DNA from: Candidatus Hydrogenedentota bacterium | Lineage (GTDB): Bacteria; Hydrogenedentota; Hydrogenedentia; Hydrogenedentales; SLHB01 | Length of the DNA stretch: 44,190 nt | Direction: 5' to 3' | Assembly (NCBI GenBank): GCA_019695095.1 | Contig: JAIBAQ010000029.1 | Coordinates: forward strand, 1 to 44,190 | Shown here: one piece after another, positions 1,553 through 32,784 of the stretch | How the letters are laid out: the number at the start of each line of letters is the position of its first letter | Position numbering within the stretch: the stretch's first letter is position 1 | The notes under the pieces: model-generated | What the model was told of the DNA's origin: nothing | The model's database searches: none | The model's input: the letters and a program-made list of their open reading frames with translations, nothing else | Program-made: the position numbers and the translations under genes

Positions 1553-2416
1553 CTACCCGTTGCTTGCTAGCCCCAGGTTTTCCGCAATACGCCGGAAGAA
1601 CCCGGGCCGGTTCTCTTGAATGTCGCCGCGTTGGCGCTGCAGACGGAGCGCCAGTTCCTGCACACACCGCGTTGCAGGCGCCGCCGGATACCGCAGAACG
1701 AATGGATACGATTGCATGACGCTCTGCTGCACATGCGGGTCGCGTGGGATATAGCCCAGATACGACAAGCTGCGGCCCAGGAACTGTTGCGTCACATACG
1801 ACAGTTTGCTCGCTACGGCCTTCGCTTGCGCTTCGCTGACCACTTGATTGATGACAAGACGAAACACGGCATCGTCTCGGGTTTGATGAATCGTCTTGAT
1901 GGTTGCGTAGGCATCGACGATGGACGACGGTTCAGGAGTCGTTACGAGCAGTACTTCATCGGCCGCAGCCGCAAATGCCACCGCATTCTGGCCAATGCCG
2001 GCCATCGTGTCGATGATGATGAAGTCGTGTTCTTCCTGCAATTCGCGCAAGCCTTCAAGGACGTTGTTGCGCGCCGTCGGGCCCATATCGGCCATACGCG
2101 CCAACCCCGAACTCCCCGGAACCACTTTCATGTCGCCGGGCCCGTTCACCAGCACCTCTGCAATTTTGCGTTCGCCGAGTATCACATGTTGCAGGTTGTA
2201 GAGCGAGTTGAGCCCCAGCAGGACTTCAACGTTGGCCAGGCCGAGGTCCGCGTCCAGCACCACAACGCGCGCCCCGTTGTTCGCCAATGCGATCCCCAGG
2301 TTCACGCTCGTATTGGTCTTTCCGACGCCGCCTTTGCCGCTGGTGACGGCCATCACGCGCGCGCCGCGCTGATGATTCTTTACGAAGTCTCGAAGTCGTT
2401 GTGCTTGATCGGCCAC
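1553..2416 (-). CDS. flhG: FlhG, MinD-like ATPase controlling flagellar number
   Basis: A 287-residue ParA/MinD-family ATPase. It starts at a GTG (2416). Residues 3-9 read DQAQRLR, the N-terminal DQAxxLR motif that in this family stimulates the FlhF GTPase. The deviant Walker A is GKGGVGKT at 27-34, followed by the switch segment VVLDADLGLANVEVLLGL and the Walker B-like region around FIIIDTMAGIG. The C-terminal part contains hydrophobic residues suitable for a membrane-targeting helix. FlhG shuttles between membrane and cytoplasm and limits flagellar number and placement together with FlhF. It is the last gene of the flagellar operon, nine bases after flhF. No chemotaxis or fliA gene follows, which is unlike many operons of this type. 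Confidence 0.95.
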   Translation of the reverse strand: MADQAQRLRDFVKNHQRGARVMAVTSGKGGVGKTNTSVNLGIALANNGARVVVLDADLGLANVEVLLGLNSLYNLQHVILGERKIAEVLVNGPGDMKVVPGSSGLARMADMGPTARNNVLEGLRELQEEHDFIIIDTMAGIGQNAVAFAAAADEVLLVTTPEPSSIVDAYATIKTIHQTRDDAVFRLVINQVVSEAQAKAVASKLSYVTQQFLGRSLSYLGYIPRDPHVQQSVMQSYPFVLRYPAAPATRCVQELALRLQRQRGDIQENRPGFFRRIAENLGLASNG

Positions 2417-2425
2417 GGGTGCACC

Positions 2426-3787
2426 CTACCTTCCGTACAAAGTTCCGACTCGCGTCGAGCGGCCCTTCAAGACCAGCTCGGTAACGATATCGGATTGCGC
2501 CAAAACCAAGTCGTCGGGAACGTTCTGTCCCACGCTGAGATAACTGATCGGCAAGCCGCATTCGGCAGACATCGAGAAGAGCGTGCCGTAGCGGCGCGTC
2601 TCGTCCAGCTTCGAGTAGAACACCGAAGAGGGCGACAACGGCGCGAAGTTCGAGACAATCTGCTGTTGATCGTCCAATTGGGTGTTTGCCGCAAGCATCA
2701 ACATGATTTCGTGCGGATCACCCGCCACGAGCATTTCGCGCAACTCCCGCAATTGCCCCTTGTTGAACTGGCTGCCGCCCGCCGTGTCAATCAACACAAG
2801 ATCGTACGAATGAAACGCCGCGATAGCGCTCGCCATCTCCTTCGCGTCGTTCACGACCGTCATCGGAATGCCGATGATGTTCGCGAATACGCGAAGCTGT
2901 TCCGGGGCCGCCACGCGATAGGTGTCGGCCGTAATCAACGCGACCTGCATCCGTTCGCGCACGGCATACCGTGCCGCCAATTTGGCGAGGTTCGTCGTCT
3001 TTCCGACTCCGGTCGCTCCCACGAGCGCAATCCTGCGGCACGTGCCCGCGGTGACCGCGATTCCTCCCGTCACTCGCACTTGCCGTTGAACCTCATTCGC
3101 GAGCCGCTCCGCAAACACGCGCGGATTGCGCATCACTTCACGATCGCTATCGCGCACCGCAGCTGCCAACAAGGCCGCTGCTATCTTGCGCGACACCCCG
3201 GCATCAAGCAGCATCTTGTAGTGCGAGGCGTACTCGGTTGGCACGTTCGCGCCGGGAGTCTCCGCCACCAGCATCTCGACCAACTGCCGCAAGTCCGCGA
3301 TTTCCCGGCGAAGTACATCCGTCATGTTGGGCGCGGGCTGGGGGCGCTTAAACGGGACTACTGGAGATGGCGCGGCCTCGGCGGACTCCACCGGCCTCGG
3401 CGCAGGTTGCGAGGCAATGCGGCGCTGCGCTTCCGACACCAATTGCCTGAAATACGCCACGCTGTCGGCCACGGTTTCGTCCGAACCAACCGGGGCGTTC
3501 TCCTTGGCGGCGGGAGGGACGGTACGTGGCGCAGGAGCCAGATTGCCCGAAAGCGTGTTGGCGTATTTGCGCTCCGCCGCGCCAAGACTCCGCGTCGGAA
3601 ACTCTTTCCGCGCGACCGGGGCCGATGCAGTCAGTTCTACGAGCTTCTTTCCAAGGAAACCCAGCACGCCACCCTCCCTCACATGCGTAGTTCGAATCAC
3701 GACAGCGTCATCTCCAAGCTTCCGGCGCATCAAGGTGTACGCGTCGTCAAACGTCGATCCCCTGAATCGATGGAACTCCTGGGTCAT
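2426..3787 (-). CDS. flhF: FlhF, SRP-type GTPase for flagellar placement
   Basis: A 453-residue signal-recognition-particle family GTPase. The N-terminal basic region (about 1-60) is followed by a Pro/Ala-rich linker, then the N helical domain and the G domain. The P-loop is GATGVGKTT at 257-265, the next motif is ITADTYRVAAPEQLR, and the G3 motif reads DTAGGSQF at 334-341. Relatives usually have DTAGR here, so a conserved arginine is replaced by glycine (bases 2771-2788). The C-terminal part has the TKLDE-like motif as SKLDETRRYG. FlhF recruits the first flagellar components to the chosen site. Its ATG (3787) lies one base beyond the flhA stop (TAACATG), indicating translational coupling. 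Confidence 0.95.
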   Translation of the reverse strand: MTQEFHRFRGSTFDDAYTLMRRKLGDDAVVIRTTHVREGGVLGFLGKKLVELTASAPVARKEFPTRSLGAAERKYANTLSGNLAPAPRTVPPAAKENAPVGSDETVADSVAYFRQLVSEAQRRIASQPAPRPVESAEAAPSPVVPFKRPQPAPNMTDVLRREIADLRQLVEMLVAETPGANVPTEYASHYKMLLDAGVSRKIAAALLAAAVRDSDREVMRNPRVFAERLANEVQRQVRVTGGIAVTAGTCRRIALVGATGVGKTTNLAKLAARYAVRERMQVALITADTYRVAAPEQLRVFANIIGIPMTVVNDAKEMASAIAAFHSYDLVLIDTAGGSQFNKGQLRELREMLVAGDPHEIMLMLAANTQLDDQQQIVSNFAPLSPSSVFYSKLDETRRYGTLFSMSAECGLPISYLSVGQNVPDDLVLAQSDIVTELVLKGRSTRVGTLYGR

Positions 3788-3788
3788 G

Positions 3789-5870
3789 TTACTTGCTCAC
3801 CTGTCCTTCGCTCTCAAGTTTCACGGCCGGGTCGATCTCGTTAAACGACAACACGACTACTTTCGGAATCTTCCGCTCAACGATCCGGCGGAAATACCGG
3901 CGCACCTGCGCCGAAGTCAGTACAATGGGTTCTTGCCCAGCCATTACGAGTGGTTGAACGGCCTGCACCGTGTTACGCGCAATCGCGTCGGCGCGCGCCG
4001 GTTCCAAGGGAATGTACTCGCCCGTTTCCGCCTGCCGGATCGCGTCTATGATCTCCTTCTCCAGGTCCGGAGCCAGCGTGACCACGTGCAGACGGCTTTC
4101 GTCGTCAATGTATTCCGCGCAAATGTGTCGCGCCAACGCATGCCGCGAATATTCGGTAAGGATCTCCGGATCTTTCGTGCGTGGACCAAAGTCCGCCAGC
4201 ACTTCGAGTATTGTCTCCAAGTTTCGAATGGAGACGCGCTCGCGCAGCAGGTTCTGCAAGACCTTCTGCACTTCGCCCAGCGTCAAGATGCCCGGCACCA
4301 GCTCTTCAGTGACGCTCTTCGCCGTTTCCTTGATGTGATCGACAAGTCCTTGGACATCCTGACGCGTGAGGAGTTCGGGCGCATATGTCATCAGCAGTTC
4401 CGTGAAGTGCGTCGCCAATACCGCAGACGGTTCGACAATCGTGTAACCCAGGCGTTCTGCCCTGTCACGCTGGTTTGCGGCGACCCATACCGCCTTCAAT
4501 CCGAAGGCCGGTTCAACCGTCGGTATACCTCCGACTTCCTCCTCCACAATCCCGGGATTCATCGCGAGATAATGGTCGGGAACGATCTCGTAGCGCGCGA
4601 TTTCCGCGTCGCGCAGCTTGACTCGATACTCATTCGGCCGAAGCCGCATGTTATCCACAATCCGCACAACGGGGACGATGAATCCCATTTTGGAAGCCAT
4701 TTGCTGGCGGATAATTTGAATGCGCGTGAGCAAGTCGCCGCCTTGTTTGGGGTCGGCCATCGCGATGAGCCCGTAACCCAATTCGATCTTGAGCGGATCG
4801 ACTACCAGCAGCGCTTCCGTCTTCGGCGGCTCCTCTTTCACCTTCGCCTGGCGTTCCGCGGCCTCTTTCGCCTCCGCGGCAGCCTTGTCGCGTCGCGCGG
4901 TTGCGCCGGATTGATAAGCCAGTGCACCCAACAGTGCCGCCACGATCATGAACGGCAGCGTCGGCATCCCCGGCACAACGCCAAACAACGCCAACAGCAC
5001 CGCGCTCAGTCCGATAGCCCGCGGATACCGCGTCAATTGCTTTGTCATGTCGGCGCCGAGATTGTCTTCGGTGGCTGTGCGTGTAACGATAAGGCCCGCT
5101 GCCGTCGACACAATCAGCGCCGGCACCTGCGTAACCAGTCCATCGCCGATGGTTAACCGCGTGTACACTTGCACGGCATCGGTAAGTTCCGTGCCCATCA
5201 TGACGACCCCGATGAACAAGCCGCCCAGAATGTTCACAATCGTGATGATCAGGCCCGCAACCGCGTCGCCGCGCACGAATTTCGTCGCGCCGTCCATGGC
5301 CCCATAAAAGTCGGCTTCCCGCTCGATGGTGCGCCGGCGTTGCCGCGCCTGTTGCTCGGAGATAAGTCCTGCGTTCAGGTCCGCGTCCACGCCCATCTGC
5401 TTACCAGGCATGGCGTCCAACGTGAAGCGGGCCGCGACTTCTGAGATGCGCGTCGCGCCTCGCGTAATCACCACGAACTGAATGATGACGAGGATCGAGA
5501 AGATTACGATACCTACAACGTAGCTGCCGCTCGTCACGAATGTCCCGAATGCCTCAATCACCTTGCCCGCGTTTGCGTTCGATAGAATCAACCTCGTTGA
5601 CGCAACGTTAAGACTCAAGCGAAACAGGGTTAACATAAGTAACAGCGATGGGAAGACCGCGAAATCCAACGGATGCTGTAGGTAGATCGCGCCCATCAGC
5701 ACCACCACGGAAAGAGAGATGTTCAGCGTGAGCAGAATGTCCAGCATCCACGTGGGTATCGGAAGCACGAGCACAAGCAGAATACCCACCGTGCAGACGG
5801 CCAACGCAATGTCCTGATTGCGGAAAAGGGCCGGCCGCTGGTCCAGCATCTCTTGTTGCGATACCGCCAC
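3789..5870 (-). CDS. flhA: FlhA, flagellar type III export gate protein
   Basis: A full-length 693-residue FlhA of the FHIPEP family. The N-terminal half holds about eight membrane helices, starting at LAVCTVGILLVLVLPIPT. It includes the cytoplasmic FHIPEP signature loop RFTLDAMPGKQMGVDADLN, where conserved charged residues couple export to the proton gradient. A linker rich in Lys/Glu/Ala follows at about 320-350, then the cytoplasmic domain that forms the nonameric ring and docks export chaperones (from about 355). The GTG start at 5870 fits the family; an in-frame ATG seven codons later is the alternative. The gene is 35 bases after flhB and one base before flhF. Confidence 0.96.
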   Translation of the reverse strand: MAVSQQEMLDQRPALFRNQDIALAVCTVGILLVLVLPIPTWMLDILLTLNISLSVVVLMGAIYLQHPLDFAVFPSLLLMLTLFRLSLNVASTRLILSNANAGKVIEAFGTFVTSGSYVVGIVIFSILVIIQFVVITRGATRISEVAARFTLDAMPGKQMGVDADLNAGLISEQQARQRRRTIEREADFYGAMDGATKFVRGDAVAGLIITIVNILGGLFIGVVMMGTELTDAVQVYTRLTIGDGLVTQVPALIVSTAAGLIVTRTATEDNLGADMTKQLTRYPRAIGLSAVLLALFGVVPGMPTLPFMIVAALLGALAYQSGATARRDKAAAEAKEAAERQAKVKEEPPKTEALLVVDPLKIELGYGLIAMADPKQGGDLLTRIQIIRQQMASKMGFIVPVVRIVDNMRLRPNEYRVKLRDAEIARYEIVPDHYLAMNPGIVEEEVGGIPTVEPAFGLKAVWVAANQRDRAERLGYTIVEPSAVLATHFTELLMTYAPELLTRQDVQGLVDHIKETAKSVTEELVPGILTLGEVQKVLQNLLRERVSIRNLETILEVLADFGPRTKDPEILTEYSRHALARHICAEYIDDESRLHVVTLAPDLEKEIIDAIRQAETGEYIPLEPARADAIARNTVQAVQPLVMAGQEPIVLTSAQVRRYFRRIVERKIPKVVVLSFNEIDPAVKLESEGQVSK

Positions 5871-5905
5871 GCCTTACACGCTCCCCATTGTCGCTAAGCC
5901 GTACA

Positions 5906-7021
5906 TCATCGCGCGCCTGCCAGAGTGGACATGTTGCGCGCCCGCTCACGACGCTTCTCTATGCGCCGATCGATGCGATACACGAATGACAACACCTCGG
6001 CCACCGCCCGGAAGAGATTCTCCGACACCGGCTGACCCACTTCGATGTTCTTGAACAAGGCTCGCGCCAGTTCGGGTTTCTCTACGATGGGCACCTGATT
6101 CTCTTCCGCGATTTGGCGGATGCGCTGCGCCAGCAATCGCGCTCCCTTGGCAACGACGACGGGAGCGGCCATGGTGTCCATGTCGTACCGCAACGCGACG
6201 GCGAATCGGACCGGGTTGGTAATAATGACGTCTGCTGTGGGCACCTCAGCCATCATGCGCTTCATCGCCATCTGGCGCTGTATCTGCCGAATCCGCTGCT
6301 TGATGCGCGGATCCCCTTCCATGCTGCGCGCTTCTTCCTTGGCTTCTTGGACTGTCATCCGAAGATCCTGCCGGTGCTGCCAGTACTGGTATCCGAAATC
6401 CGCCAAGCCCAGGATGAGCATCGCAAGGACTACTCGCAGCCAAATCGCCGCCGCAAGCGATGCGATGCCCGATATTGCTCCCATCGGCGTCAAGTAGGCT
6501 ATCCCATAAATCTCGTCGATGCGGTCGCGCATGGCTACATAAACGATATACATGATGAGCACAAGCTTAAGAACCGATTTGACGAGTTCCACGAGCGTTC
6601 GCGGCGAGAAGAACTTCTTGAACCCGCTAATTGGATTCAACCGGTTGAATTTCGGCGCCAGCGCTTTGGGCGTATACACGAAACCGGTCTGAATCACGTT
6701 CATCGTCGTGCCCGCCAACAGCATTAGAACGCAGAACGGCAAGAGCAAACGGCCCAGGCGCAACAGCGTGAACATGGCCAAATCGATGAACGCGTCCGTG
6801 TCCGGAGAAAACTGCGTTATATTGCCGAAGAAGAACTGGGTGCTTTCCACGAGGCCTTCGAACATGTCCGAACCCGAATACCAGAAGATGCCAAGCGCGA
6901 CCGCCAACGACCATGCCGCGTTGAGGTCCTGACTCTTGGCAATGTTCCCTTCCTCGCGCGCCTTCGATATCTTCTGCGCTGACGCGGGTAGGGACTTCTC
7001 TCCACCGGTATCTTCGGCCAT
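5906..7021 (-). CDS. flhB: FlhB, flagellar export switch protein with a variant cleavage motif
   Basis: A 371-residue FlhB/SctU-family protein. It opens with the typical GEKSLPASAQKISKAREEG segment, then has four membrane helices between about 35 and 215, a basic linker (KEEARSMEGDPRIKQRIRQ) and the cytoplasmic domain. FlhB normally cleaves itself between Asn and Pro of a conserved NPTH motif, switching export from hook to filament. Here the site reads NPVR (269-272, bases 6206-6217): Asn and Pro are kept, Thr and His are lost. Flanking residues fit the family well (ADVIIT before, FAVALRYD after). The ATG at 7021 follows fliR by six bases. I see no frameshift, so the change is a true substitution. 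Confidence 0.95.
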   Translation of the reverse strand: MAEDTGGEKSLPASAQKISKAREEGNIAKSQDLNAAWSLAVALGIFWYSGSDMFEGLVESTQFFFGNITQFSPDTDAFIDLAMFTLLRLGRLLLPFCVLMLLAGTTMNVIQTGFVYTPKALAPKFNRLNPISGFKKFFSPRTLVELVKSVLKLVLIMYIVYVAMRDRIDEIYGIAYLTPMGAISGIASLAAAIWLRVVLAMLILGLADFGYQYWQHRQDLRMTVQEAKEEARSMEGDPRIKQRIRQIQRQMAMKRMMAEVPTADVIITNPVRFAVALRYDMDTMAAPVVVAKGARLLAQRIRQIAEENQVPIVEKPELARALFKNIEVGQPVSENLFRAVAEVLSFVYRIDRRIEKRRERARNMSTLAGAR

Positions 7022-7027
7022 GTCCCG

Positions 7028-7798
7028 TTATGCCATCCCTCGTATCGCCGTACCCACATTCTCGAACATCCGCTCGAACATGCCGTCCAGCAGACTCAAG
7101 TACGCCGTCAACGATATCGCCACCAGCAACAACGCCATCGCGATTGTCACCGGGAATCCCACGACAAAAAGGTGTACCTGCGGGATGAGGCGACTGAGAA
7201 GCCCCATCGTCAGGTATGCCAGCAACAGCGCTCCCACTGCGGGCGCCGCAATCATGATTCCGTCGTAGAACATGGCTCGTCCCCACGAGCTTACTTCCCA
7301 CAAGAGGGCGGGATTTGCCTGAAACCCACCCAGGGGGATCGTTTCGAAAGACGCCGCCAGCGCCCGAATCATCAGGTGATGCGCGTCCAGCACGAGCAAG
7401 TACAGCGCCGCCAGCAGAAACAGAAAGAAGCCGAAGATGGGTACCTGTGTCTCCAGGGCCGGATTGAACACGTTGATTAACGAGAATCCGCTCATCATGT
7501 CCAGAATTTGTCCCGCCACTTGAATCGCCGCGAACGTCAGCGTCATGACGAACCCAATGACGATCCCAATCAGCAATTCTCCCATTCCGTACAACGCAAA
7601 CCCCACGGCATCATCCGGAATCGGCGTATCCAACCGCCCGATTGCCGGAGTAATCAACATTGCCGTCAGGCCAACCAAGCCAATCTTCGCCGTGGTTGGA
7701 AAATTGCGCGAGCCAATAACCGGCGCTGTCATGATGAGCCCGCTGAAGCGCACCACGACCAGGAGGAAGACTTTGAAAACCTCAACCTCGAATACCAT
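7028..7798 (-). CDS. fliR: FliR, flagellar export channel subunit
   Basis: A 256-residue, six-helix membrane protein of the FliR/SctT family. The N-terminus (VFLLVVVRFSGLIMTAPVIG, then SRNFPTTAKIGL) and the middle segment ELLIGIVIGFVMTLTFAA are diagnostic. FliR builds the helical entry portal of the flagellar export channel with FliP and FliQ and contacts FlhB. The gene lies between fliQ (56 bases upstream) and flhB (six bases downstream), the standard fliQ-fliR-flhB order. Confidence 0.95.
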   Translation of the reverse strand: MVFEVEVFKVFLLVVVRFSGLIMTAPVIGSRNFPTTAKIGLVGLTAMLITPAIGRLDTPIPDDAVGFALYGMGELLIGIVIGFVMTLTFAAIQVAGQILDMMSGFSLINVFNPALETQVPIFGFFLFLLAALYLLVLDAHHLMIRALAASFETIPLGGFQANPALLWEVSSWGRAMFYDGIMIAAPAVGALLLAYLTMGLLSRLIPQVHLFVVGFPVTIAMALLLVAISLTAYLSLLDGMFERMFENVGTAIRGMA

Positions 7799-28724: not shown

Positions 28725-31700
28725 CTACGCCTGGAATCCCCTGCGTCTCCGTGCGCGAATGAATACTCCAGTCCCTACGCACAACAGCACTACCAGAGTT
28801 GACGCGTAGCCCACGGGAACCGAATCCATCGGCGTACTTGAGTTCAAATACGGATCGGAGCCAGCCAGATTCTCCTCGGAATCGGAGAATCCATCTGCGT
28901 CCGAATCCAGGTCTAGCAGATTCGGGATCAGGTCGCCATCCGGATCGCCCACCCCTTCAACGCTGTCCAGGATTCCGTCGCCGTCGTCATCCGAATCCAC
29001 GTCATTCCGCTGCCCGTCATTGTCCCTGTCGAACAGGAACGAATCGGACGTGTCCACTATGCTATCCCCATCGTCGTCGGTGTCGGATACATTGGCCGTT
29101 CCGTCGTTATCTGTGTCTAGAAGGCTCGGATCGCTATTATCCAGCACACCGTCGGAGTCATCGTCAGGATCGGTGTCGTTGACGATACCGTCATCGTCTG
29201 TATCCAGGGGGAACGAGTCGGAGCCATCCAGAACTCCGTCATTATCGTCATCCGTATCGATATCGTCCGTGGTACCGTCTCCGTCTGTGTCTACCGGACC
29301 GCCAATCCCATACAGCGAGAAGTGGTCAACCTTAAAGGTAATCGTGTTCAGATCCGTGTCGTGCGCCAGAATGTCTCCTGGCGGAATGGGTTCATACTTC
29401 AATGTGCCCGAGTTGTACAGGTATACCGTCAGCGTCGCCTCGCTCGCCCCATTCAACTCCGCTTCTGTATAGGCGATGGTCACGGACAGCGGCGGAGAGA
29501 ATGTCGTTCCATCGGGGCCAAAGTCGCGTACGATGGTCATCTTGTCCACACCTGCGGGCAATTGCTCGGGAGGAACCGGATCCGTGGGTGTGCTGATGCT
29601 TATCTCCTGCGGCACCGCCGGCGGAAAGTCGATGACCGTGTTTGCCGGAATGTCGACAACGGTGTTCGAAACATCACTCACAACCGTGTCATTGTCGGTT
29701 ACCACATCGTTTACACCGTCGTTGCCTGCGCCGTTTTGATCGGCCGGCGCGGGCACACCCGGTACCAGCGTGGCCGCCTCCAGGCGCGCTGTGAAGATAT
29801 CAAACGCGGAACCGTTTGCGCCGTGCGCCGAATCGTCGATGTACGCGATACGCGCACCGCCGCTGGATACCCGCGCGATGCCCTGATTACCCGCGGCGGG
29901 AATCACCGTCACCGAGCCGCTTCCGTCGGCGGGTGCATAGGCAATTTCGAAGTTGGTTGACCCAAAATTCGAGGTGTACGCATTAAATGTTCCCGTGACA
30001 TCTTTGGAATAGATGACCGTCTCGCCATCTGGAGTAAGTACCGGTTGCACTTTGTAATCGGAGGTGGTATCAACGAACTTGAGTCGCGGATCGCCAAGGT
30101 CTATCGGTGCAGTCACAAGTCCGTTCAGCGTATCGAGCACGCGCGTCAGTGTCACCACGCTACGTGTGATCGCGCCGTCGTCCGAAGGGAAGTAAACGAG
30201 AGCAACCCGATCGCCGTCCGGTGTGAAGTGCGGTTCGGAAAAGCCCTCTCCCGTGTTGAACGCGATATTCGTGATTCGTGTCTTTTCGGTGATGCTCTCC
30301 AGAAGTCCCTGTTCCGATATGGACAATGACTCAATGTTCCAATCGTCGCCCTTAGCGTACGCGATAAAATTGGTCCCTGAGCGATCGGTGATAGAGGGGG
30401 TGCCAATCTGAGCGATCGATCCAGAACTATTTAAAGTGACGCTCGGAGACAGGAGAGTCTCAACAAGGCGATCTCCATACACATCATGGATGTGCCAAAG
30501 CGATTGATCGCCATAACCCCACGCGATGCCCCGCTTGAATCCGCACGTACCCAGACTGACGGGAGCGGTCGAACCGTCGGCAGGCACGACATACCGCACA
30601 TCAGGGCCGAAGTCCTCGAATGCTATCTTTGTGCCATCATGCGACCACTCAAGTTGGAATGGGGCCATCCCAGTGGTACCGGTGACGATCTTCGTGGCAC
30701 CTGTAATGCTCAGTGTCTTTGCCGGATGCAGTTTGAAAGAAGCATTATCGATAGGACTGGTACCGTCTCGGAATTCAACCTTGTTCGCAATCCCATCTCC
30801 ATCATAGTCATTGCTACCGTCGCTTACGCTATCGCCGCTATTGGACCCGCCATCGCCCGTGGTGTCCGGACTCATCGGGTCGAACGGATTCTGTACACCA
30901 CCAGCCACACCATCCAGGTCTATCACCTCTTCTCGGTCCGTCAACCCATCCAGATCGGAGTCCTTTTGCTTCGGATTTGTTCCATACGTGTTGATTTCCT
31001 CGCCGTCTGTCAACCCGTCGCCATCCGGATCGGCCTTGACCGGGTTTGTATCCTCCGTGAATTCCTCAAGATTGGTTAGTCCGTCCACATCGGGATTCGC
31101 ACCGGCATCGTTGCTCAGGTGATCGAGCAAATACTTCTTCTCCCACCAGTCCGGCATGCCATCGCTGTCCGTGTCCCGAGTCGCCGTGGACGGGTCAAGC
31201 TTCAGCGCGAACGTGTCTCCCGTAATCACACCGTCTCCGTTGAACGTTGTATCGTAGGCCCCCGGCGTCGTCGGAAAGTTCGAGGACCACGCCGTGCCGC
31301 CCGCATACACGAACCCGCCGGATACGGCAATGTGCGCGGAATAGTCCACGCCAAATCCGCCAATAAACGTGGAATACACCAACGATGTGAGCGACGAATT
31401 GATGCACGAGATGTAGCAGTCGTTGTCCCCACCGTTGAATGTTACGTCGTACGCACCCCGCGTCGTCGGATAGGCGGTTGAACGCGTCTCGCCGCCCCAC
31501 CACACGTTGTCATTTTCGTCCACGACGCCACCCACGACGCCATCGGACTGTATCCCTCCTACGACCGTACTCGCGAGTACACTTGTGGCCGTCGAGTTGA
31601 TCTTCACGACATACGCGTCATTGACTCCGTTGTACGTCTCATCAAAGGCTCCGGATGTCGTCGGAAAGTTGGCGCTCCGCGTGATGCCCAGACAGAACAG

Positions 31701-32675
31701 ATCGCCGGTCGAGGCGGGCAATATGGACCAACCTACGTCGTTACCCGTTCCGCCCAGATACGAAGAAAAGACTAGGGCGGTCCCGCCGGCATTGATCTTC
31801 GTCAGATACACATCGCGCGCACCGCCACTGGTGGGCTGAAAGACTCCGCCAGTTACCGGAAAGTTTGTGCTGTCTGTTCTGCCCGTGACCAGCATTTCGC
31901 CCGATGGAAGCAGGGTCCCACCCAGAAGCAAGTCGTTTGACGACCCACCCACATACGTTAAATAAGAAAGCGCGTTGCCCGTCGGCGACAGTTTCCCCAC
32001 CGCACCGTCATTGCCCCCAGCGTTAAGGGTCTGAAAGGCGCCTAAGGAAACCGGAAGGTCCGTTGAAGTGGTGTGCCCGCCAAAGTACACGTTGCCGGAA
32101 CCATCCACTCCCAGGCAGGTGTTCTCCCAGGTCACATCGTCGCCGGACCCGCCCACAAACGTGCTGAAGACGAGGCTGGTTCCCGTCGGGTTGAGCTTGG
32201 CAATGTACCAGTCCCAGCCTCCGTTGATCGTGGTGTCAAAGGCCCCCGGCGTAACCGGAAAGTCCGACGATTCCGTGTAGCCGAAGCAGTAGATGTTGCC
32301 CAAGCTGTCAATTACTACCTTGTCCAACTCCTCGTCTCCCGAACCCCCAAGATAGGTCGAGAAAAGGACGTCGCCTGTCGCCGGATTGAGCTTGGTGATG
32401 AAACCATCTCCCACCCACGGCGACCCATTGTTGCCTGATCCTCCATGGTTCGTCGGCTGATACGCGCCGGCAGTCACGGGAAAGTCGGTCGAAAGCGTAA
32501 TTCCATAGACCCACACGTATCCGGAAGAGTCGACCACAATACCCTGATTGACTTCTTCCGCGGATCCTCCCAGGAAGGTGCTCCAAGAAAGGGCGTCTGG
32601 ATTCTGTGCGTATGCGATTATCGGTGAAAAAATCAGTGCTATGATCCAACTGCCCAATCGTACTTTTGGCTTCAT
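28725..32675 (-). CDS. Giant SBBP-repeat / thrombospondin-3 surface protein with C-terminal anchor
   Basis: A 1316-residue exported protein. The signal peptide is at 1-23. About nine SBBP (beta-propeller) repeats run to about 465, each with the pattern STFLGGSG...TDFPVT.GAF...KLN (e.g. STYLGGSGDEELD). A first set of thrombospondin type-3 calcium repeats follows (DPDGDGLTDGEEINTYG), then a TolB-like propeller (WSHDGTKIAFED), a beta sandwich, and a second run of about ten DTDNDGTAN-type repeats near the C-terminus. The last 31 residues (VPVGYASTLVVLLCVG then RARRRRGF) are motif, helix and Arg cluster, as in sortase/exosortase-type sorting signals. The ATG at 32675 has GGAGG five bases upstream. 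The protein lacks the N-terminal domain normally fused to SBBP repeats, which is the next gene upstream. Confidence 0.88.
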   Translation of the reverse strand: MKPKVRLGSWIIALIFSPIIAYAQNPDALSWSTFLGGSAEEVNQGIVVDSSGYVWVYGITLSTDFPVTAGAYQPTNHGGSGNNGSPWVGDGFITKLNPATGDVLFSTYLGGSGDEELDKVVIDSLGNIYCFGYTESSDFPVTPGAFDTTINGGWDWYIAKLNPTGTSLVFSTFVGGSGDDVTWENTCLGVDGSGNVYFGGHTTSTDLPVSLGAFQTLNAGGNDGAVGKLSPTGNALSYLTYVGGSSNDLLLGGTLLPSGEMLVTGRTDSTNFPVTGGVFQPTSGGARDVYLTKINAGGTALVFSSYLGGTGNDVGWSILPASTGDLFCLGITRSANFPTTSGAFDETYNGVNDAYVVKINSTATSVLASTVVGGIQSDGVVGGVVDENDNVWWGGETRSTAYPTTRGAYDVTFNGGDNDCYISCINSSLTSLVYSTFIGGFGVDYSAHIAVSGGFVYAGGTAWSSNFPTTPGAYDTTFNGDGVITGDTFALKLDPSTATRDTDSDGMPDWWEKKYLLDHLSNDAGANPDVDGLTNLEEFTEDTNPVKADPDGDGLTDGEEINTYGTNPKQKDSDLDGLTDREEVIDLDGVAGGVQNPFDPMSPDTTGDGGSNSGDSVSDGSNDYDGDGIANKVEFRDGTSPIDNASFKLHPAKTLSITGATKIVTGTTGMAPFQLEWSHDGTKIAFEDFGPDVRYVVPADGSTAPVSLGTCGFKRGIAWGYGDQSLWHIHDVYGDRLVETLLSPSVTLNSSGSIAQIGTPSITDRSGTNFIAYAKGDDWNIESLSISEQGLLESITEKTRITNIAFNTGEGFSEPHFTPDGDRVALVYFPSDDGAITRSVVTLTRVLDTLNGLVTAPIDLGDPRLKFVDTTSDYKVQPVLTPDGETVIYSKDVTGTFNAYTSNFGSTNFEIAYAPADGSGSVTVIPAAGNQGIARVSSGGARIAYIDDSAHGANGSAFDIFTARLEAATLVPGVPAPADQNGAGNDGVNDVVTDNDTVVSDVSNTVVDIPANTVIDFPPAVPQEISISTPTDPVPPEQLPAGVDKMTIVRDFGPDGTTFSPPLSVTIAYTEAELNGASEATLTVYLYNSGTLKYEPIPPGDILAHDTDLNTITFKVDHFSLYGIGGPVDTDGDGTTDDIDTDDDNDGVLDGSDSFPLDTDDDGIVNDTDPDDDSDGVLDNSDPSLLDTDNDGTANVSDTDDDGDSIVDTSDSFLFDRDNDGQRNDVDSDDDGDGILDSVEGVGDPDGDLIPNLLDLDSDADGFSDSEENLAGSDPYLNSSTPMDSVPVGYASTLVVLLCVGTGVFIRARRRRGFQA

Positions 32676-32784
32676 TGCTACCTCCCCGCCGTTTGATGAA
32701 AAGTCATAGTCTTCCAAAGAAACCGCTATCAATCATGGGCCGAACGCAACGCCCATAAACTCAGAAGATGAGCCAAAGACAACC

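Follow-up and report, generated by a model that had tools for sequence, protein, structure and literature searches.

The window (the whole stretch of 44,190 nucleotides of Hydrogenedentota DNA that was analysed) contains a run of flagellar genes on the minus strand, in which fliR lies upstream of flhB, and flhA, flhF and a flhG-like ATPase gene lie downstream. The features that matter here are the following (papers cited by PMC number, in this list and below, are drawn on in excerpt):

7028-7798, minus strand: fliR, export gate (above the TIGR01400 cut-off)
5906-7021, minus strand: flhB, flagellar export-gate switch protein of 371 aa (above the TIGR00328 cut-off; PF01312 at full length)
6206-6217, minus strand: self-cleavage site N269-P270-V271-R272 (NPVR, not NPTH), by direct reading and alignment with relatives
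5906-6214, minus strand: predicted cleaved C-terminal fragment FlhB-CC, from Pro270 to the stop, with pocket residues A286, P287, A341 and L344 kept (alignment columns; pocket as given in PMC13344023)
6137-6139, minus strand: Arg295 codon in a KGxR turn, statistically linked to loss of His272 (alignment)
3789-5870, minus strand: flhA, export gate (above the TIGR01398 cut-off)
2426-3787, minus strand: flhF (above the TIGR03499 cut-off)
1553-2416, minus strand: MinD/ParA-type ATPase, below the minD equivalog cut-offs and putatively flhG from its place behind flhF

According to the list of open reading frames, no other recognised flagellar gene adjoins this run (1553-7798); fliP and fliQ, if present, lie outside it. 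Elsewhere in the window, 28725-32732 (minus strand) encodes a long protein (1335 aa) that looks secreted and carries Asp-rich repeats of a calcium-binding-like kind close to the C-terminus, as judged by eye.

The flhB frame (371 codons, 7021 to 5906) passes the flhB equivalog TIGR00328 with 376.4 bits (cut-off 349.25) and matches PF01312 (Bac_export_2) with 414.7 bits (cut-off 24.4) over profile positions 2-335 of 335. An identity as injectisome SctU was rejected, the score against TIGR01404 (312.6 bits) being below the cut-off of 358. Read on the minus strand, positions 6217-6206 are AAC (6217-6215), CCG (6214-6212), GTC (6211-6209) and CGA (6208-6206), in frame as N269, P270, V271 and R272. 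An earlier sequence-only reading had reported exactly this motif, with Asn-Pro kept, Thr and His lost and both flanks typical, and it proves correct on each point: the Asn-Pro scissile bond is present, the Thr-His that should follow it is absent, and the site is bordered by VIIT before and FAVALRY after.

The same reading had reckoned with a second, canonical flhB elsewhere in the genome. None was found in the assembly (a metagenome assembly of 405 contigs, 95% complete): the sole other PF01312 match is a 98-aa, C-terminal-only paralogue on contig C37, which has no N-P site and is encoded behind a FliK-like gene. Its best match is TIGR00789 (FlhX / flhB_rel), and since the score (102.6 bits) is below the cut-off of 117.35 we call it FlhX-like only. 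The FliK-like gene in front of it (L002:32-1758) is a second, weak one (Flg_hook 23.3 bits, below cut-off) that overlaps the FlhX-like gene at the latter's start; across Hydrogenedentota, Flg_hook matches are found repeatedly in the vicinity of FlhX-like genes. A proper FliK is encoded elsewhere in this genome, which also has four Flagellin_N matches. A missing FliK can be ruled out as an explanation of the variant site, given a Flg_hook match in 45 of the 46 FlhB-bearing Hydrogenedentota genomes.

Within the phylum, 48 of 68 genomes match the query: 46 have FlhB itself and the other two an FlhX-like gene only. These 46 genomes yield 47 FlhB sequences, as G001 has two (one of them nearly matches the FlhB of G016 and of G022, which may reflect contamination). 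The site is spelled NPVR in 8, NPTT in 8, XPTT in 1, NPTE in 8, NPTR in 6, NPTH in 6, NPVT in 5, NPIR in 3, NPTQ in 1 and NPTK in 1. His is thus kept in 6/47 and lost in 41/47, Thr is kept in 31/47, and Asn and Pro are constant in all 47 (one Asn being an unread X). A survey of relatives for NPVR had been proposed; it returns seven further Hydrogenedentota FlhB sequences with this spelling. The motif singled out earlier therefore recurs, although it was too narrow a description, as the phylum has eight spellings without His, NPVR among them.

The source, a metagenome assembly in many contigs, could in principle raise the suspicion of an assembly or sequencing error, for which NPTH in all relatives would have been expected. 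Instead, independent assemblies at about 65% protein identity share NPVR, which refutes this reading; we regard its probability as negligible. Contamination as the source of the sequences was likewise rejected, as all 47 Hydrogenedentota FlhB form one clade in the FlhB tree. NPVR is real, and is neither chance nor a sequencing error.

To place the loss on the tree we used an alignment of 162 sequences. The counts exclude duplicate loci, L105 (a second FlhB of G095, with NPTH), L108 and L109 (which recur as G021 and G020) and L127 (broken frame). Outside Hydrogenedentota, and apart from the phylum of G091 and family f71, His is found in 107/107 readable sequences among the matches listed. It is kept in 30/30 loci in the phylum of G095 and 30/30 in that of G077 (30 loci each, among the matches listed), in 3/3 in the phylum of G096, in 20/24 in the phylum of G092 and in 24/24 readable others (one of 25 such rows has no readable motif and is not in the 107). 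The four exceptions in the phylum of G092 all belong to family f71 (L207, L209, L216 and L225), which has His in 0/4 and reads NPTS, NPTS, NPTL and NPMA. In the phylum of G091 His is found in 0/3 (NPTS, NPTF and NPTT). Several phyla tolerate other residues at the Thr position (NPDH, NPEH, NPAH, NPSH, NPVH and NPQH). Since Thr is free in this way and His is missing in 41/47 Hydrogenedentota sequences, the survey argues against Thr-His as a defining feature of FlhB.

The G091 group is sister to Hydrogenedentota in the FlhB tree (support 0.997), so that His has been lost at least twice, once before Hydrogenedentota and the G091 group and once in f71. Parsimony infers 14 changes at site 272 within Hydrogenedentota and 5 at site 271, against none at 269 (one X apart) and 270; a model in which His is never regained needs 14 losses. 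Site 272 changes more often here than 80% of the 142 domain sites (14 changes, 47 tips, tree length 16.2), whereas it does not change at all in the G095 clade (31 tips, tree length 14.9), where N-P shows no changes either. Had cleavage been abandoned, N-P should have drifted as well, yet it is constant, which argues that cleavage was retained.

A second position varies together with His272. The KGxD turn sits where the helix that follows strand 3 begins (model residue 83), and among the matches listed its Asp295 is present in 65/113 His-bearing FlhB against 0/48 His-less FlhB with a residue there; Asp295 never occurs without His272 (65/65, among the matches listed). In both independent losses of His the Asp is also gone, replaced by Arg, Lys or Tyr. 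Arg295 can nonetheless coexist with His, as it does in 13/30 in the phylum of G095 (among the matches listed) and in 6/6 in Hydrogenedentota. With only two independent losses, and Arg295 found beside His, the association is a lead and no proof; a contact between His272 and Asp295 as the normal role of His would be plausible from these alignments.

NPTH has been called strictly conserved (PMC2615192) and, in another excerpt, conserved in all known homologues (PMC4875606). The excerpts on mechanism ascribe cleavage to cyclisation of the Asn in a turn held by the folded domain (PMC2615192, PMC3040844). In Xanthomonas HrcU, N264A abolishes cleavage, whereas T266A and H267A have a slight effect (PMC3040844), and Shewanella putrefaciens FlhB, with a natural NPEH, self-cleaves (PMC7771051). 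The PDB entries of EscU T264A (3bzv) and H265A (3bzx) include chains of 83 residues whose first residue aligns with Pro270, and which are hence cleaved products. This argument runs in one direction only, since a single-chain record is no proof that cleavage is lacking: the entries of native YscU (2jli) and Shewanella FlhB (6z0w) likewise have one chain. The sequence-only reading had held that NPTH drives self-cleavage: for the Asn, which does the chemistry, and the Pro, which helps, this stands, whereas Thr and His matter little according to the HrcU mutants (as excerpted in PMC3040844) and the EscU chains. Cleavage can be weak under some conditions, as described for A. aeolicus FlhB in Salmonella at 37 C (PMC3430611). 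A 2026 paper argues that the importance of the cut lies in FliK having to take away the C-terminal fragment; it also names A286, P287, A341 and L344 as the early-substrate pocket residues of Salmonella (PMC13344023).

The window FlhB keeps the Asn, the Pro, the flanking strands and all four pocket residues. The predicted structure of its domain (pLDDT 84.7) matches solved FlhB and EscU domains, with 48% identity and an rmsd of 1.2 against 6z0w. These kept features and the HrcU, EscU and Shewanella precedents make cleavage with Val-Arg the most likely state, and with the mutants, the PDB chains and the constancy of N-P clearly favour the first of the two alternatives offered earlier, that cleavage proceeds without Thr and His. 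No cleavage assay was found for an FlhB whose site lacks His in this way.

Overall, the window protein appears to be an ordinary flagellar FlhB that would cleave itself between Asn269 and Pro270, with Thr and His dispensable for the cut; we give this a probability of roughly 0.8. Asn269 would cyclise in a strained turn and so bring about the cut, for which the residues after the Pro would not be needed. The constraint on His was presumably lifted in the ancestor of Hydrogenedentota and the sister phylum, probably while the KGxD Asp was replaced by a basic residue; afterwards residue 272, and to a lesser extent 271, would have drifted among Arg, Thr, Glu, His, Gln and Lys. The cleaved FlhB-CC should serve as the usual dock and lock for early substrates, released by FliK at hook completion. 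That the window FlhB is cleaved is an inference, as are its rate of cleavage, the link between His and Asp, and the downstream switch. Cleavage may be slower here, and the switch might work differently beyond that step. The window FlhB has lost both Thr and His (to Val and Arg), whereas each of the tested mutants carries one Ala change. Arg272 beside the scissile bond could slow the reaction, and the turn's shape, not cleavage, could be the reason why N-P is kept.

It might be argued that cleavage is lost or greatly slowed, that the free-standing 98-aa FlhX-like protein supplies the C-terminal half in trans, and that the site is decaying. An FlhX-like protein is indeed present in 41/46 FlhB-bearing Hydrogenedentota genomes, with the pocket kept (A341, L344 and P287 in 43/43, A286 in 41/43). 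Helicobacter pylori HP1575 reportedly replaces the FlhB C-terminal domain. For HrcU, the C-terminal part is able to act in trans (PMC3040844). The invariance of N-P amid drifting neighbours speaks against a decaying site, and the distribution of FlhX is at odds with a causal role: f71 lost His, yet FlhX was detected in 0/24 matching genomes, and the phylum of G077 retains His (among the matches listed) though most FlhB genomes there have FlhX. FlhX was therefore rejected as the cause of the loss, and as its presence does not track the loss it is unnecessary to explain it. We consider a loss of cleavage very improbable, while the FlhX-like protein could take on part of the C-terminal fragment's work. 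The FlhX-like sequences themselves (L053-L095) have Arg or Lys at the place of His272 in 39/43, and Gly or Arg, never Asp, at that of residue 295.

Cleavage might instead be kept while residue 272 is adapted, being exposed after the cut and taking part in a contact peculiar to the lineage, with FliK, FlhX or early substrates. The Pro, Thr and His side chains of Spa40 are surface-exposed after cleavage, and a role for the loop surface has been proposed (PMC2615192); PMC3542141 and PMC3640470 both quote a model with FliK docked on the loop after its cleavage. A single spelling (VR, TE, VT or TT) persists for long in some clades, but close relatives carry opposite charges (Arg, Glu) or none (Thr), which looks like drift, so that adaptation seems rather unlikely. 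The self-cleaving, drifting FlhB favoured above would also leave room for a rewired export switch in Hydrogenedentota, in which a contact that needs His272 (possibly with the KGxD Asp, or with FliK) is replaced, the identity of the residue is irrelevant and the work of FlhB-CC is divided between it and the FlhX-like fragment; this extension we regard as unlikely.

If such rewiring were true, Hydrogenedentota would be a natural experiment on the purpose of the conserved His. A phylum in which Asn-Pro is kept and His is mostly lost sets the residues that the cut requires apart from one that is conserved for another purpose, and the partner change at KGxD offers a concrete test of what His serves. 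For annotation, NPTH is unsafe as a rule for recognising a functional FlhB. This is a new, natural and phylum-wide variant of a known switch protein; a natural His-less FlhB is unreported in the titles and abstract openings of the open-access papers searched.

Compared with known systems, the window protein is closest to the flagellar FlhB of Salmonella (NPTH) and the solved domains of Salmonella (3b0z) and Shewanella (6z0w), which it resembles in its full-length family match, N269-P270, flanks, pocket and fold; even the numbering coincides with that of Salmonella FlhB (N269, P270, Y279 and P287 in PMC3640470). It differs from them in Val for Thr271, Arg for His272 and Arg295 where Asp is commonest elsewhere. 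The Shewanella putrefaciens FlhB (NPEH, PMC7771051) is a natural case of a change after N-P with cleavage kept, though there only Thr is changed and His is kept, whereas here both are changed. EscU T264A/H265A and HrcU T266A/H267A likewise keep N-P and have Thr or His replaced, but these are laboratory substitutions of one residue by Ala, in injectisome proteins. Paralogues of the FlhX / YlqH type are homologous to the fragment after the N-P site; they are encoded by a separate gene, have no membrane domain attached, and are neither a cleavage product nor a second canonical FlhB.
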